This document shows, in pieces, positions 11,991-50,958 of a DNA stretch of 64,000 nucleotides. Source of the stretch: Bradyrhizobium sp. CCBAU 051011 (lineage in GTDB: Bacteria > Pseudomonadota > Alphaproteobacteria > Rhizobiales > Xanthobacteraceae); the NCBI RefSeq assembly GCF_009930815.1, contig NZ_CP022222.1, positions 310,001 through 374,000 on the forward strand, read 5' to 3'. Made by a program: the position numbers and the translations under genes. Position 1 is the first letter of the stretch. The number at the start of each line of letters is the position of its first letter. The notes under the pieces were generated by a model that was not told where the DNA came from, did no database searches, and was given only the letters and a program-made list of their open reading frames with translations.

Positions 11991-12092
11991 CGTCGTCCCC
12001 CGCGAAGGCGGGGGACCCAGTACGCCGCGGCCTATCGATTGAATCGCTGACGTTTCTGGAATACTGGGTCACCCGCCTCCGCGGGTGACGAC
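11991..12092. repeat. ~100-bp dispersed repeat, CGTCGTCCCCCGCGAAGGCG type
   Basis: Left end CGTCGTCCCCCGCGAAGGCG and right end CCGCGGGTGACGAC are imperfect inverted copies. The interior carries CAGTACGCCGCGGC and CTGGAATACTGGGTC. A full second copy with the same interior landmarks is at 31782-31881. The element lies 23 bases after the pepP stop. The surrounding 11968-12197 holds no gene. Confidence 0.85.
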
Positions 12093-12197
12093 AGCGGAGT
12101 GTGCTGTCCGAAATCGGCATGGCCGCATGCCGAAACGTCCCTATTCCCGCTGGGCCATCTGGGTAAAAGTCAGTTCAACCAACAGGATCTGAACTGA

Positions 12198-13497: not shown

Positions 13498-13670
13498 CGT
13501 CATTGCGTGCGCAGCGAAGCAATCCATAGCGCCGCTTTGGGGTAGATCGATTGCTTCGTCGCTTCGCTGACGAACCTGTCCTGCCTCACGACGCAATTGC
13601 CAGCCAAACAAATCAATCCCATTACTTTCTTACGCCGCAATGGGATTGCTTCGCTTCGCCCGCAATGAGG
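13498..13670. repeat. Degenerate palindromic repeat (CGTCATTGCGxGCGxAGCGAAGCAATCCAT family)
   Basis: Left arm CGTCATTGCGTGCGCAGCGA and right arm CTTCGCCCGCAATGAGG are diverged inverted copies, with an internal GAAGCAATCCAT / GGGATTGCTTCG pair. The same family, better preserved, is at 14352-14469, so the WG-repeat gene between them is bracketed by two copies. Non-coding. Confidence 0.65.
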
Positions 13671-14351: not shown

Positions 14352-14469
14352 CGTCATTGCGAGCGGAGCGAAGCAATCCATCGTGCCACACGCTGAGAAT
14401 GGATCGCTTCGTCGCGGAGCCTGTCATCGGGCGCGCATTCGCGCGACCCGTTGGCTCCTCGCAATGACG
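14352..14469. repeat. Palindromic repeat (CGTCATTGCGAGCGGAGCGA family)
   Basis: Starts CGTCATTGCGAGCGGAGCGA, followed by AGCAATCCATCG; ends CTCGCAATGACGG, the inverted copy of the left end. An inner hairpin GGGCGCGCATTCGCGCGACC lies near 14429. It ends just before the ligA stop and may serve as a 3' mRNA structure. Confidence 0.8.
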
Positions 14470-26484: not shown

Positions 26485-27405
26485 CTATGCGGGAATCCCG
26501 ATCCGCTTGATTTCCCAATGTAGCTCTATGCCCGAATTCGCTTTAACCCGCTCGCGCACGGTTTCGCCCAAGGTTTCAATATCATGGCCGGTGGCGTTGC
26601 CGGTGTTGATGAGGAAATTGCAGTGCATTTCCGACACCTGCGCCCCGCCGACGCGCAAGCCCCGGCAGCCGGCGGCGTCGATCAGTTTCCAGGCGCTGTT
26701 GCCGGGCGGATTCTTGAAGGTCGAGCCGCCGGTCTTTTCGCGAATCGGCTGAGCGGTTTCGCGGTGATTCTGCACCTCGTTCATCCGCGCGCGAATGGTT
26801 TCAGCGTCGGTGATCTGCCCGCGAAGACGCGCGGAGGTAAAAATGACCGAAGTGTCGACACCGCTGTTGCGATAGACGAACTTCATGTCGGCATTGGAGA
26901 AGACATGCCTGGTGCCGTCGCGGCCGATGCCGACAGCATCGAGCAGCACGTCCTTGGTCTCGCTGCCATTGGCTCCAGCATTCATCCGCAGCGCGCCGCC
27001 GATCGTGCCGGGAATGCCGAAGAAGAATTCCATGCCGCCGATCGTGGCAGCCGCCGCCGTTTCCGCCACGCGCTTGTCGAGCGCGGCCGTGCCGGCGCTG
27101 ACGACGTCGCCCTCGGCTCTGGTCTCGCCGAACGCCCGTGGCGACAGGCGGATCACCACACCTTCCATGCCGCCGTCGCGCACGATCAGGTTGGAGCCGA
27201 CGCCGACGACATAGACCGGCAACTCCTTCGGAAGCAGCTTCAAGAAGTAGGCGAGATCGTCTTCATCCGCCGGCGTAAACAGCACCTGCGCCGGCCCGCC
27301 GACGCGAAACCAGGTCAACTCCGCCAACGACTGGTTTGCGAGCAACCGCCCGCGCAGTTGCGGCATTGCGGCTTTCAGATCATGCGTGATGTCGGGAAAG
27401 GTCAT
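26485..27405 (-). CDS. murB: UDP-N-acetylenolpyruvoylglucosamine reductase
   Basis: FAD- and NADPH-dependent reductase giving UDP-MurNAc, 306 aa. FAD-binding region: [20 protein letters not shown] and [14 protein letters not shown]. The type I MurB pattern continues with [20 protein letters not shown]; catalytic Ser is in GGSTFKNP and the C-terminal Glu in [14 protein letters not shown]. Length is normal. It is separated from murC by 412 bases containing the GIY-YIG element, an unusually loose junction for this gene pair. Confidence 0.97.
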
Positions 27406-27420
27406 GCGAACTCTCTCAAC

Positions 27421-27457
27421 TCGTCATGGCCGGGCTTGTCCCGGCCATCCACGTCTT
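27421..27457 (+). repeat. Left 37-bp inverted repeat of the GIY-YIG element
   Basis: Starts TCGTCATGGCCGGGCTTGTC and ends CACGTCTT. It matches the reverse complement of 27761-27797 at all 37 positions. An ATG inside it (27426) is in frame with the nuclease ORF, so a 15-residue N-terminal extension encoded by the repeat (MAGLVPAIHV...) is possible. Confidence 0.92.
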
Positions 27458-27470
27458 GCAGACTATCCGC

Positions 27471-27761
27471 ATGGCAGGCGGCTATGTTTACATTCTGACG
27501 AACCGACCGAACGGCATCCTGTACGTTGGGGTGACAAGCGATCTTGTCCGCCGGATATTCGAACATCGCTCGGGATTCGTCGACGGCTTCACCAAGCGAT
27601 ATGGTTTGAAACGATTGGTCTATTTCGAGCAATTCGACGACATCCGAGACGCCATCCAGCGCGAACACAACATCAAGCATTGGCCCCGGGCCTGGAAAGT
27701 TCGGAAGATCGTCGCCATGAATCCGGATTGGAACGACCTTTTCGATACCATCGCGACCTAA
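27471..27761 (+). CDS. Small GIY-YIG nuclease (UPF0213-like)
   Basis: Single-domain GIY-YIG endonuclease, 96 aa. The paired motif is YVYILTNRPNGILYVGVTSD (Y5-V-Y7 and Y18-V-G20). The conserved Arg follows in DLVRRIFEH with His 32, and the catalytic Glu is E65 in AIQREHNIKHW; the tail NPDWNDLF is typical of the family. It is encoded opposite to the dcw genes and sits exactly between two 37-bp inverted repeats. Start: ATG 27471 gives the usual family N-terminus; ATG 27426 within the left repeat would add 15 residues. Small proteins of this family are common in Bradyrhizobium-like genomes; their physiological role is not established. Confidence 0.88.
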   Translation: MAGGYVYILTNRPNGILYVGVTSDLVRRIFEHRSGFVDGFTKRYGLKRLVYFEQFDDIRDAIQREHNIKHWPRAWKVRKIVAMNPDWNDLFDTIAT

Positions 27762-27797
27762 AGACGTGGATGGCCGGGACAAGCCCGGCCATGACGA
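27761..27797 (-). repeat. Right 37-bp inverted repeat of the GIY-YIG element
   Basis: Begins AAGACGTGGATGGCCGGGAC on the plus strand and is the exact inverted copy of 27421-27457. Its first base is the last base of the nuclease stop codon. It ends 20 bases from the murC stop codon. Confidence 0.92.
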
Positions 27798-27817: not shown

Positions 27818-29221
27818 TCACCCCAACGCCTTCAGTTCGCCGGGCAGTGCGTAGGCCCATTGCGTGATGTTGCCGGCGCCGAGGCACACGACGAGGTCGC
27901 CAGAGCCTGCGAGGCCGTGAACGATTTTTGCCAGCTCCGCCGAACCCGGTAGCGGGATCACCTCGCGATGGCCGTGGGCGCGCAGGCCGGTGACGAAATG
28001 GTCGCGGTCGATACCTTCGATCGGCGCCTCGCCGGCCGGATAGACCTCGGCGACGATAACCGCATTGGCATCGTTGAAGCAGGTGCAGAACTCCTCGAAC
28101 AGCGACTGCAGCCGGGTGTAGCGATGCGGCTGCACCACGGCGACGACCTTGCCGTTGGTGGATTCACGTGCCGCTTTAAGAACAGCCGCGATCTCGACGG
28201 GGTGATGGCCGTAATCGTCGATTACGGTAACGCCGTTCCACTCGCCGGTCCGGGTGAAGCGCCGCTTGACGCCGCCAAAACCTGCGATCGCCTTGCGGAT
28301 CGCGTCGTCGGACATGCCGAGTTCATGCGCCACCGCGATCGCCGCCGTCGCGTTCGAGGCGTTGTGGCGCCCCGGCATCGGCAGCATGAGATCCGCGATC
28401 TCACGCGTGGCGTCGGTCTTGCGGTTGCGGAACACGACCTTGAATGTCGACCCGCCGCCGTTCGGCGTCAGGTCAACCAGCCGCACGTCGGCCTGCGGGT
28501 TCTCGCCATAGGTGATGATGCGGCGGTCCTCGATCTTGCCGACCAGGCTCTGCACCACGGGATGATCGGTGCACATGACCGCAAAGCCGTAGAACGGTAC
28601 GTTCTCGACGAAATTACGGAACGCCTCCTGGATCGCCTCGAATGTCTTGAAGTGATCGAGATGCTCGGGGTCGATGTTGGTGACGATCACGACATCGGAC
28701 GGCAGTTTCAGGAACGTGCCGTCGCTCTCGTCCGCCTCGACCACCATCCAGTCGCCCGCCCCGAGCCGCGCATTGGAGCCGTAGGCGTTGATGATGCCGC
28801 CGTTGATGACGGTCGGATCGAGACCGCCGGCATCGAGCAGGGTCGCGACCATCGTGGTCGTCGTGGTCTTGCCGTGGGTGCCGGCGATGGCGACGCAGCT
28901 TTTCAGCCGCATCAGTTCTGCCAGCATTTCGGCGCGGCGCACCACCGGAATGCGCTGGGCGCGCGCCGCCATCAATTCGGGATTGTCGCGCTTGATCGCG
29001 GTCGAGACCACGACGACGTCGGCGCCGTCGACATTCTCTGGCCTGTGGCCGACCGAGACCTTGACGCCCTTCTCCCGCAGCCGGGCGACATTGCCGCTCT
29101 CGGAGGCGTCCGAACCCTGCACGATGTAGCCGAGATTGACCAGCACCTCGGCGATGCCGCTCATGCCGATGCCGCCGATCCCGACGAAGTGAATGGGTCC
29201 GATCTCGCGCGGCAGTCTCAT
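27818..29221 (-). CDS. murC: UDP-N-acetylmuramate--L-alanine ligase
   Basis: Adds L-Ala to UDP-MurNAc, 467 aa. N-terminal Rossmann-like motif [21 protein letters not shown]-binding P-loop GTHGKTT at residues 114-120, the MurC-specific version. Central domain motif [17 protein letters not shown] and C-terminal [16 protein letters not shown]. Start: an in-frame start at 29287 adds 22 unlikely residues (MLDHPFLC...); ATG 29221, beginning [17 protein letters not shown], is preferred. Downstream of murG; followed by the GIY-YIG insertion before murB. Confidence 0.97.
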
Positions 29222-29379
29222 GAAGTGTTCCCTGTCGTCATCATCCGCCTTGTGCGCAATTGCACACAGGAACGGATGATCCAGCATTCCGCGAGGCCGA
29301 GGATCAAATCAGGCGCCGCGGAGTAATGGATGCCCCGCTTTCGAAGGCGCTGACAAGGGGCTATTTTGCGGACAACCGC

Positions 29380-31781: not shown

Positions 31782-31881
31782 CGTCATACCCGCGAAGGCG
31801 GGTATCCAGTACGCCGCGGCTTCTCCGTTCGATTACCGGCGTCTCTGGAATACTGGGTCATCCGCTTTCGCGGGTGACGAC
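31782..31881. repeat. ~100-bp dispersed repeat, second copy
   Basis: Shares with 11991-12092 the arms CCCGCGAAGGCGGG... and GCGGGTGACGAC-like ends, and the interior landmarks CAGTACGCCGCGGC and CTGGAATACTGGGTC. It is part of a 303-base gene-free stretch (31671-31973) between the DUF5107 gene and ftsW. Confidence 0.85.
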
Positions 31882-31885
31882 AGTT

Positions 31886-31968
31886 CGTAGGATGGGTGGA
31901 GCGAAGCGATACCCATCAATTGCGTTGGCGAAAGATGATGGGTTTCGCTGCGCTCTACCCATCCTACG
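31886..31968. repeat. Palindromic repeat (CGTAGGATGGGTGGAGCGAA family)
   Basis: Left CGTAGGATGGGTGGAGCGAA, right GCTGCGCTCTACCCATCCTA, with an inner GATACCCATCAA / GATGGGTTTCG pair. It is adjacent to the ~100-bp repeat. Related copies are at 33442-33519 and 33776-33850, so the DUF5107 gene is bracketed by two copies. Confidence 0.85.
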
Positions 31969-33441: not shown

Positions 33442-33519
33442 GTAGGATGAATAGAGCGAAGCGAACCCATCAATCTGGTACCGCAGCGATGGGTTTCGCT
33501 GCGCTCTACCCATCCTACG
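33442..33519. repeat. Palindromic repeat (GTAGGATGAATAGAGCGAAG family)
   Basis: Left GTAGGATGAATAGAGCGAAG, right GCTGCGCTCTACCCATCCTA. Same family as 31886-31968, immediately upstream of the DUF5107 gene. Confidence 0.82.
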
Positions 33520-33775: not shown

Positions 33776-33850
33776 GAGGATGGGTTTCGCTTCGCGATAC
33801 CCATCCTCCGATTACTAAGGGAACCGATGGGTTTCGTCGCGCTCAATTAC
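33776..33850. repeat. Diverged copy of the GATGGGTTTCGCTTCG repeat
   Basis: Contains GATGGGTTTCGCTTCGCGAT with ACCCATCCTCC, then a second GATGGGTTTCGTCGCGCTCA. Boundaries are approximate. It separates the two small hypothetical genes. Confidence 0.6.
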
Positions 33851-44531: not shown

Positions 44532-44556
44532 TTAGCTCCTCCGATCTTAGACCTCT

Positions 44557-44591
44557 CGTCATGGCCGGGCTTGTCCCGGCCATCGACGTCC
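44557..44591 (+). repeat. Solitary copy of the GIY-YIG-element end hairpin
   Basis: Matches 27421-27455 over 35 bases with one difference (CCATCGACGTC for CCATCCACGTC). It contains the same ATGGCCGGG-CTTGT-CCCGGCCAT hairpin, but no nuclease ORF is adjacent. It lies in a 376-base gap (44532-44907) with no convincing gene. Confidence 0.85.
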
Positions 44592-45390: not shown

Positions 45391-45427
45391 TACATTGCGA
45401 CCGTCTTTGGCTCAAGCCGAAGAGGAA

Positions 45428-45461
45428 GACGGGGATGCCCGGGACAAGCCCGGGAATGACG
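45428..45461. repeat. Diverged hairpin repeat (GATGCCCGGGACAAGCCCGG)
   Basis: Hairpin with a CCCGGGACAAGCCCGGG core, a relative of the GIY-YIG-element end, running GACGGGGATGCCCGGGACAA to CCCGGGAATGACG. It sits in the 72-base convergent gap between the coiled-coil gene and the sigma-factor gene. Confidence 0.75.
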
Positions 45462-50081: not shown

Positions 50082-50151
50082 GGCCTTGCCCTCCGCGGAG
50101 GCCTACCTTGTTGAGCGGATGGTGGAGAGTCAATCCTCGCAGAGGTGTCTC

Positions 50152-50237
50152 GTAGCCCGGATGAAGCGCAGCGCAATCCGGGATTCTCGGGCCGTGGCGC
50201 GCAGACCCCGGGTTGCGCTGCGCTCCACCCGGGCTAC
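50152..50237. repeat. Palindromic repeat (GTAGCCCGGATGAAGCGCAG family)
   Basis: Left GTAGCCCGGATGAAGCGCAG, right GCGCTCCACCCGGGCTAC; a relative of 2067-2147. It lies between the AraC gene start and the upstream hydrolase stop. Confidence 0.85.
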
Positions 50238-50241
50238 GGGA

Positions 50242-50958
50242 CTACCCCGCAATCTTCTGCAGCAACGCCATCAGCGCTTCCGGCGCGGTGACATTCGGCG
50301 AATGGCTGGTGTCGATCTCGTAATAGCTCCAGGCCGCATCCCCCTTCGTCATTTTGGCGAACGGCCCGAACGTGTCGGCCGGCGTGATGCGGGTCGCGTA
50401 GATATAGCTGCGCGGCAAGGTCAGCGGCCCGCCCTGCAGCTTGAATTTTGTTTCAAAGCATTTGATCGGCATGTCGACGCGGCGTGCGCTGAGCCATTCG
50501 ACGTCGGCGGGCGCAGTATCCGGCGGCGTCGGGTTCGGCGGCACGCGCCAGCCGTCGCCGCTCGTTGCGAGCTCCTGCATCCGCGCCCGCGCCGCCTCGT
50601 TCAGGTCGAGCAGCGATTGCCCGCCTTCGGGCACGAAGGCGTCGATATAGATGAGCTGCCTGACCTTGTCGCGGGCGCGGTCGGCGACACCGGTCGCGAC
50701 CATGCCGCCATAGCTGTGGCCGATCAGCACGATGTCGCGCAGGTCTTCATACCTGTTGCCGGCAAGCATGTCCTCGATATGCGAATTGAGATCGATCGCC
50801 GGACTAGCCAGATGCGCGCGCTCGCCAAGGCCGGTGTAGCTCGGCGTGATCAGGCGATGCCCGGCGGCCTGCATCAGCGGATGCATCTTCTTCCAGGCCC
50901 AGCCCGCGGACCATGCGCCGTGACAGACGAGGAAGGTTTTCGAGGGAGTTGCGCTCAT
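50242..50958 (-). CDS. Alpha/beta hydrolase (second of a pair)
   Basis: Hydrolase of 238 aa, paralogue of the 48269-48997 product. HGAWSAGWAWKKMHPL supplies the oxyanion hole, LIGHSYGGMVATGVADR the Ser nucleophile elbow, and YEIDTSHSPNVTAPEALMAL the catalytic His. Start: ATG 50958 gives MSATPSKTFLVCHGAW; the in-frame ORF start at 51177 runs through the repeat at 51049-51152. Substrate unknown; the pair probably arose by duplication with the AraC regulator between them. Confidence 0.9.
   Translation of the reverse strand: MSATPSKTFLVCHGAWSAGWAWKKMHPLMQAAGHRLITPSYTGLGERAHLASPAIDLNSHIEDMLAGNRYEDLRDIVLIGHSYGGMVATGVADRARDKVRQLIYIDAFVPEGGQSLLDLNEAARARMQELATSGDGWRVPPNPTPPDTAPADVEWLSARRVDMPIKCFETKFKLQGGPLTLPRSYIYATRITPADTFGPFAKMTKGDAAWSYYEIDTSHSPNVTAPEALMALLQKIAG

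Follow-up and report, generated by a model that had tools for sequence, protein, structure and literature searches.

The window, by which is meant the whole stretch of 64,000 nucleotides analysed here, is part of the 9.1-Mb genome of Bradyrhizobium sp. CCBAU 051011, which is assembled in a single contig, and it holds, between two genes that are presumably murB and murC (names taken from the original prediction and from the sequence), a compact unit in which a small GIY-YIG nuclease gene is framed by two inverted REPs (Table 1). The arms of the unit, 37 nt each, are 100% complementary and leave 303 nt between them; the gene begins with an ATG at 27471 and its stop codon (27759-27761) meets the start of the right end, so that base 27761 is common to both. 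An alternative in-frame ATG at 27426, within the left end, would give a product of 111 aa. The gene lies between murB and murC and outside any reading frame, and the unit is separated from murC by 20 bp and from murB by 15 bp. The original prediction had claimed perfect 37-bp inverted ends, a 9-bp palindrome in each, the overlap of the stop codon with the right end, the enclosed GIY-YIG gene, and near-identical solitary ends elsewhere in the window; all of this is borne out, the palindrome being a 9-bp stem with a 5-nt loop in each end and one of the two solitary ends being a stem variant.

Table 1. Features of the nuclease unit, its flanking genes and the solitary REPs of the same kind (positions in the window)
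Feature	Position	Strand	Basis
Left REP end, fitting the CGTC-3 type	27421..27457	+	sequence, arm comparison, fold
Left REP end, tag CGTC	27422-27425
Left REP end, stem	27426-27434 / 27440-27448
Left REP end, loop CTTGT	27435-27439
Left REP end, tail CCACG, then TCTT	27449-27453 (tail)
GIY-YIG nuclease gene, 96 aa + stop	27471..27761	+	ORF, Pfam, alignment
Right REP end, exact inverted copy of left end	27761..27797	-	sequence, arm comparison
Solitary REP, same type as unit ends, 97% to them	44556..44590	+
Solitary REP, stem variant, 89% to unit ends	45426..45461	-
murB (presumed), host gene flanking the unit	26485..27405	-
murC (presumed), host gene flanking the unit	27818..29287	-

The 96-residue protein has a sole Pfam match at E 0.001, to PF01541 (GIY-YIG), which reaches 51.5 bits against a cut-off of 22.6 and spans residues 4-76. 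In an alignment of 21 family members, of which it forms the first row, 18 columns are invariant and it has all 18 residues, among them Y18, G20, R28, H32, E65 and N84, which we take to be catalytic. Its AlphaFold model has a mean pLDDT of 92.1, and a sequence profile search of the PDB returned the UPF0213 proteins 1zg2 (7e-10) and 1ywl (4e-6). The nuclease gene is under strong purifying selection: in seven of nine gene pairs dN/dS lies between 0.013 and 0.092, the two pairs set aside being L001-L196 (0.55, a gapless comparison though L196 is shorter) and L001-L041, in which dS is undefined. A known defence system was considered and rejected, as PADLOC gave no match for the protein at E 0.01. 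In the databases the family goes under the names “GIY-YIG nuclease family protein,” “excinuclease ABC subunit C” or “hypothetical protein.”

Each end of the unit consists of a CGTC tag, a 9-bp stem beginning with AT, a CTTGT loop and a CCACG tail, and the left end, folded as single-stranded DNA, reaches -13.2 kcal/mol (z -6.2), a value equalled by none of 200 shuffles. In a 2013 survey (Di Nocera 2013, PMC3733652), REPs with the CGTC tag are divided into families CGTC-1 to CGTC-4, of which CGTC-1 in Neisseria is dRS3; they occur in five phyla, mostly in alphaproteobacteria and including the neisserial dRS3, a dedicated transposase is apparently missing, and the question of what moves them is left open. 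The ends in the window share with these REPs the tag, the 9-bp stem starting with AT, the 5-nt loop, the CCA tail and the occurrence as dimers, and they fit the CGTC-3 family, an assignment made from the survey's written description of that family (PMC3733652). The difference is that the survey describes CGTC REPs without an associated transposase (PMC3733652), whereas here a nuclease gene lies inside pairs of several such types.

The 30-bp core of the end has 81 copies genome-wide at up to 3 mismatches, and the reversed control has none. All 18 neighboring REP pairs among these copies (within 400 bp of one another) share the orientation of the unit; they comprise the unit itself and 17 gene-less pairs (REPINs), whose members are 52–72 bp apart, start to start. 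Over 58 distinct ends with a CTTG[TA] loop, 98.9% of the stem cells are paired, with letter shuffles reaching at most 83.9% and two of the nine pairs being fixed by the very pattern that picked the ends; in other words, the stems vary by compensation while the loop and the tags stay constant. The solitary REPs have no replichore bias (26 vs 19, with the origin assumed near dnaN) and so give no hint of a lagging-strand mechanism. A RAYT encoded in the same genome was also considered and rejected, as PF01797, the model of the Y1/RAYT transposases, has no match in it, in a search that was positive in five of 14 control genomes. Other repeats accompany the unit in the window: those that start with CGTAG (2067-2147, 31886-31968, 33488-33519, 33779-33810 and 50147-50242) look like GTAG-type REPs, despite no Y1/RAYT transposase having been found in the genome; two repeats 81% alike (12011-12094 and 31800-31883), of the form ATCCAGTA(C) .. 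TCTGGAATACTGGGTCA(C/T)CCGC, resemble clade-D REPs arranged as pairs without a gene; and those at 13500-13525, 13643-13668 and 14354-14379, of the form TCATTGCG..GAAGCAATCC, are like the ends of another nuclease unit (L093).

The nuclease family has matches in 120 of the 149 genomes from the bacterial family, with as many as 12 per genome, a count to which fragments of broken genes contribute. At E 1e-8 it is also matched in 163 of 398 genomes from the phylum, with the weaker hits there possibly coming from other subfamilies. Flanking inverted repeats with a score of at least 20 are found at 130 of 199 relatives (127 sites) vs 8 of 1034 shifted windows, an enrichment of the kind that the original prediction had proposed to look for. 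It holds in both parts of the sample, namely the 119 family loci (78/119 vs 4/586 shifted windows), which were taken by match rank together with five multi-copy genomes, independently of their flanks, and in whose table the span of a frameshifted copy matched as two pieces (L003) was set by hand, and the named loci (52/80 vs 4/448); counting one locus per insertion site, 84 of 127 reach the same score. When the flanks were swapped between genomes in ten rounds, 285 of 1964 scored at least 20, a control that is high because REP types are common to many genomes. Of 13 loci from the other subfamily of small GIY-YIG proteins in these genomes, none scores as much as 15; the 13 are those used from 30 fetched, since several of the 17 omitted (all at or below 32 bits) belong to the REP-framed family itself.

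At the remaining 69 of the 199, no flanking pair reaches 20. Among the named loci, pairs at or above 20 extend to Bacteroidota (Hanstruepera, Arenibacter and a Lacinutrix MAG), a Parcubacteria MAG, a deltaproteobacterial MAG and Sphingomonas, and no such pair was found at, for example, the Caulobacter segnis, Kangiella and Dongia loci and several of Sphingomonas. A plasmid collection gave 35 matching records, and of the ten loci read from it, without shifted windows, seven score at least 20; in one of the seven, on a Rhizobium CIAT894 plasmid, the arms are long and are REP only in part, in another, on a Sinorhizobium C101 plasmid, one arm is 301 bp off, and the plasmid loci of Planktothrix, Spirosoma and R. 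tumorigenes stay below 20. In a Neisseria gonorrhoeae record filed among the plasmids, the relative lies within a 3.3-kb stretch holding 16 dRS3-type palindromes, with matched arms 198 and 237 bp from the gene, and within such an array enclosure alone says little.

The units have a transposon-like trait, in that they occupy many sites and have sharp boundaries at the CGTC tag. The 199 family loci represent 127 distinct sites, and among six pairs of units at unrelated sites the tag boundary is clean in three and consistent in two, the L058/L104 pair giving no clear boundary. Two copies in one genome (G069), 88% identical in DNA and at unrelated sites, can be aligned from the tag inward only, and the same is true of the clade-A units L001, at murC-murB, and L043 and L046, at another place. 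At 66 clade-A ends, picked by a pattern running from GTCAT to ATCCACG, conservation beyond the pattern covers only the preceding C and the four following bases, and then falls. Target duplication was not seen by eye at murC-murB or at the other units inspected, and no clean empty site was found; many REP-like elements make no target duplication.

The enzyme and its repeat are also matched by lineage. Between genomes, protein similarity predicts REP similarity (Spearman 0.57 over 77 loci, these being the ones of the 119 that score at least 18 and have the pair near the gene), and the likeness of nearest neighbors at the same loci was equalled in none of 2000 within-genome permutations. On a tree of 137 proteins (of the 199, those with a typed REP, 75 or more residues and a sequence uninterrupted by stops) the REP class changes 20 times, the within-genome shuffles (1000) giving a mean of 38.9 and a minimum of 29 and the free shuffles a mean of 76.7; the six classes were drawn up after the ends had been seen, and the tree has few columns, with 71 of its 134 inner branches weak. 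As a rule a nuclease lineage has a REP dialect of its own, which applies even to paralogs within one genome: the class differs between copies in 14 of 15 genomes with at least two typed copies, and in the genome of the window a second relative, frameshifted and located at dnaN-recF, has around it a perfect pair, 32 bp long, that belongs to another REP type. Within a unit, left and right end agree in class in 90 of the 93 cases where both were typed, and the orientation is predominantly tag-outward, as in the nearest CTTG-loop REP upstream of the gene in 97 of 103 cases and downstream in 88 of 106.

REP number follows the same pairing in a looser way. Where a clade-A-like gene is present (36 genomes), copies matching the clade-A REP pattern have a median of 21.5; the median is 6 in the 70 genomes with other members and 0 in the 43 with no or weak family match, the p of 8e-9 for the first group against the last being optimistic because the genomes are related. 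The number of REPs does not depend strictly on the gene, as seven of the 43 genomes without a close gene have at least ten REPs of the window's type (86 in G129, 62 in G145); four of the 36 genomes with a close gene have three or fewer.

These data bear on the simplest alternative, namely that REPs gather passively in intergenic gaps, for example at terminators, and come by chance to surround a small resident gene. REPs are indeed abundant in many of these genomes, and both the few shifted windows and the more numerous swapped flanks that reach a score of 20 can be counted in its favor; it is nevertheless very improbable as the explanation of the units, given the absence of framing in the other GIY-YIG subfamily, dialects that are lineage-specific within genomes and so contradict it in the within-genome permutations, a mostly fixed orientation, and homology that ends at the tag. 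Chance insertion of REPs was accordingly rejected on the shifted windows, the swapped flanks, the other subfamily and the within-genome permutations. Nor do solitary ends lack enrichment near GIY-YIG genes, a lack that the original prediction had set down as counting against it.

At murC-murB the gene is found in 17 of the 199 loci, across several genera and with that of the window included, and the murB of these loci is 60–100% identical to the window's; the unit is therefore old at this junction, and its recent entry there, which the original prediction had suggested in writing that the unit “has entered” the junction, does not stand and is ruled out as an explanation. Thirteen of the 17 have ends scoring at least 20 (L039, L042, L045 and L048 do not), and the named relatives with a unit at this locus include Bradyrhizobium (L185, L196). 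Each survey of a junction within the genus took 30 of 40 genomes and left 29 readable, L275 (murC-murB) and L322 (dnaN-recF) having been dropped as they had no readable partner. The 29 murC-murB junctions comprise two with the unit, 14 tight and gene-less, five with REP remnants and eight with other repeats or spacer. Close relatives that all carry the nuclease with diverged ends, the other outcome that would have spoken for a resident gene, are thus not what is seen, as 13 of the 17 keep their ends and 27 of the 29 junctions are without the unit. Probably the unit has been lost often from murC-murB, and independent gain there may also have occurred. In the tight junctions (L266-L270, L274, L277-L281, L286, L289 and L293, compared against L265) 2-5 bp separate the murC stop from the murB start, and what sets them apart from the filled junctions goes beyond the unit itself; a clean empty site with target duplication was sought among the murC-murB junctions of the genus and not found. 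The murB start is GTG in 12 of these 14, and GCC and CCG in L286 and L289; beside the unit, which places two hairpins between a pair of essential genes, it is ATG. At L276 and L282 there are a lone REP and a hybrid palindrome that seems to combine two REP halves, remains that deletion of the unit between its ends would be expected to leave.

The dnaN-recF junction gives a similar picture among its 29 readable cases. The gene is present in six, one of them the frameshifted copy of the window's genome, a REP pair alone in four (one with an insert), and none of these forms in four; 14 have a longer insert, with a DUF559 gene in all four inserts read. Gene-less and internally deleted derivatives occur here: one junction, L321, holds a unit that has lost an inner part, and L297, L317 and L319 are bare REPINs.

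Such a history raises the possibility, which we regard as real if rather doubtful, that the nuclease is now a domesticated host enzyme, a former mover with a host role such as resolving REP hairpins in replication or repair, the REPs persisting as its binding sites. RAYTs are seen likewise as domesticated, and the old stay at murC-murB, the low dN/dS in seven of nine pairs and the residues invariant over 21 rows would all agree with this; set against it are the up to 12 matches per genome (some of them pieces), the spread of 199 loci over 127 distinct sites, the 88% identical pair at two unrelated sites of one genome, and junctions of the genus that lack the unit or hold decayed forms of it.

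The reading that we prefer, and consider probable, is that the unit is a nuclease-bearing CGTC-REP element, composed of a REP, the GIY-YIG gene and an inverted REP, in which the encoded nuclease would be dedicated to the REP type that frames it and the cutting of the hairpin would lead to copying. Most likely the nuclease would recognize the REP hairpin, as a single strand or a cruciform, through the CGTC tag, the loop and the tail, and would cut at or beside the tag, after which host repair or replication would copy the unit, or the gene-less REPIN, to new places. GIY-YIG enzymes hydrolyse DNA without a covalent intermediate, unlike HUH transposases, and so rejoining would need host enzymes. 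What is strongly supported is the central idea of the original prediction, that nuclease and repeats are partners as in REP/RAYT systems but with a nuclease of another fold: enrichment, lineage-specific ends, a mostly fixed orientation, tag boundaries and gene-less derivatives all bear it out. Recognition, cutting and mobilization of the hairpins by the GIY-YIG protein are what we infer from this pattern, and the match between nuclease lineages and their own versions of the repeat makes the protein a strong candidate for the enzyme, so far missing, behind the spread of CGTC REPs.

The likeness of the two ends of a unit admits a further explanation, in which the nuclease cuts sites that are diverged or lack REPs, and the unit or its REPs are then introduced by gene conversion, which keeps the ends alike. 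Tail identity is 0.692 between the two ends of one unit and 0.446 against the ends of others (64 loci whose two ends both belong to the CTTG[TA] type; 0 of 5000 shuffles), and GIY-YIG is a classic homing fold; homing-like spread nonetheless seems unlikely, with units at many unrelated sites, stems whose compensation points to structure over a fixed target sequence, and a protein of 96 aa in which one domain match over residues 4-76 leaves little room for a separate DNA-binding domain.

Compared with known systems, the nuclease-bearing CGTC-REP element is closest in plan to REP-RAYT (TnpA-REP and REPINs, for example in Pseudomonas and E. coli). In both, inverted REPs enclose a nuclease gene, inverted pairs of REPs whose ends match those around the gene are dispersed, the vertical stay is long, and enzyme lineages are paired with repeat types. 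It differs in its domain (GIY-YIG here, HUH/Y1 or PF01797 there), in its tag (CGTC here, GTAG there) and in that no Y1 transposase was found in the genome of the window. In Pseudomonas, REP transposition has been followed by population sequencing (as cited in PMC3733652). With the GIY-YIG homing endonucleases and UPF0213 (PDB 1zg2, 1ywl) the protein has in common the GIY-YIG domain and, with UPF0213, a single-domain form, but its gene is framed by its own dispersed hairpins, and a separate DNA-binding domain is not evident. MITEs and their autonomous partners also have gene-less copies with the same ends and, as here, an internally deleted unit; here, however, each end is itself a self-complementary hairpin, and target duplication was not observed. 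A search of PMC by title and the start of the abstract, which covers few subscription papers and not bioRxiv, found no paper on the pairing of GIY-YIG with REPs among the matches listed; none of those listed joins GIY-YIG and dRS3, and a term search of the main text of the 2025 RepRanger paper did not find “GIY-YIG.” With a lineage-matched nuclease in the same unit, the question of what moves CGTC REPs becomes directly testable, and if the preferred reading is true, this would suggest that REP-like elements evolved repeatedly, around nucleases that are not related, and a large family known only by generic names would have a role.

A broader proposal is that the GIY-YIG family supplies the missing mobilizers of CGTC REPs in several phyla, the neisserial dRS3 included, and is one case of a wider class of small nucleases unrelated to one another (the HUH RAYTs, GIY-YIG, and DUF559 with CCCTCTCCCC palindromes), each member spreading and keeping its own dispersed hairpins; for this we see the chances as evenly balanced. 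DUF559 (PF04480) genes, whose products we take to be nucleases, lie between inverted repeats of the CCCTCTCCCC..GGGGAGAGGG type, framed like the GIY-YIG genes, at L295, L298, L308 and L316 (dnaN-recF of relatives) and at L355-L384. The flanks of the 30 DUF559 loci reach a score of 15 or more in 27 cases and of 20 or more in 21, compared with 0 of 170 shifted windows, and DUF559 has a weak match, below the cut-off, to a restriction-endonuclease model. A PMC literature search for DUF559 with palindromes or inverted repeats gave nothing on such framing; in the plasmid collection DUF559 is represented by 27 records.
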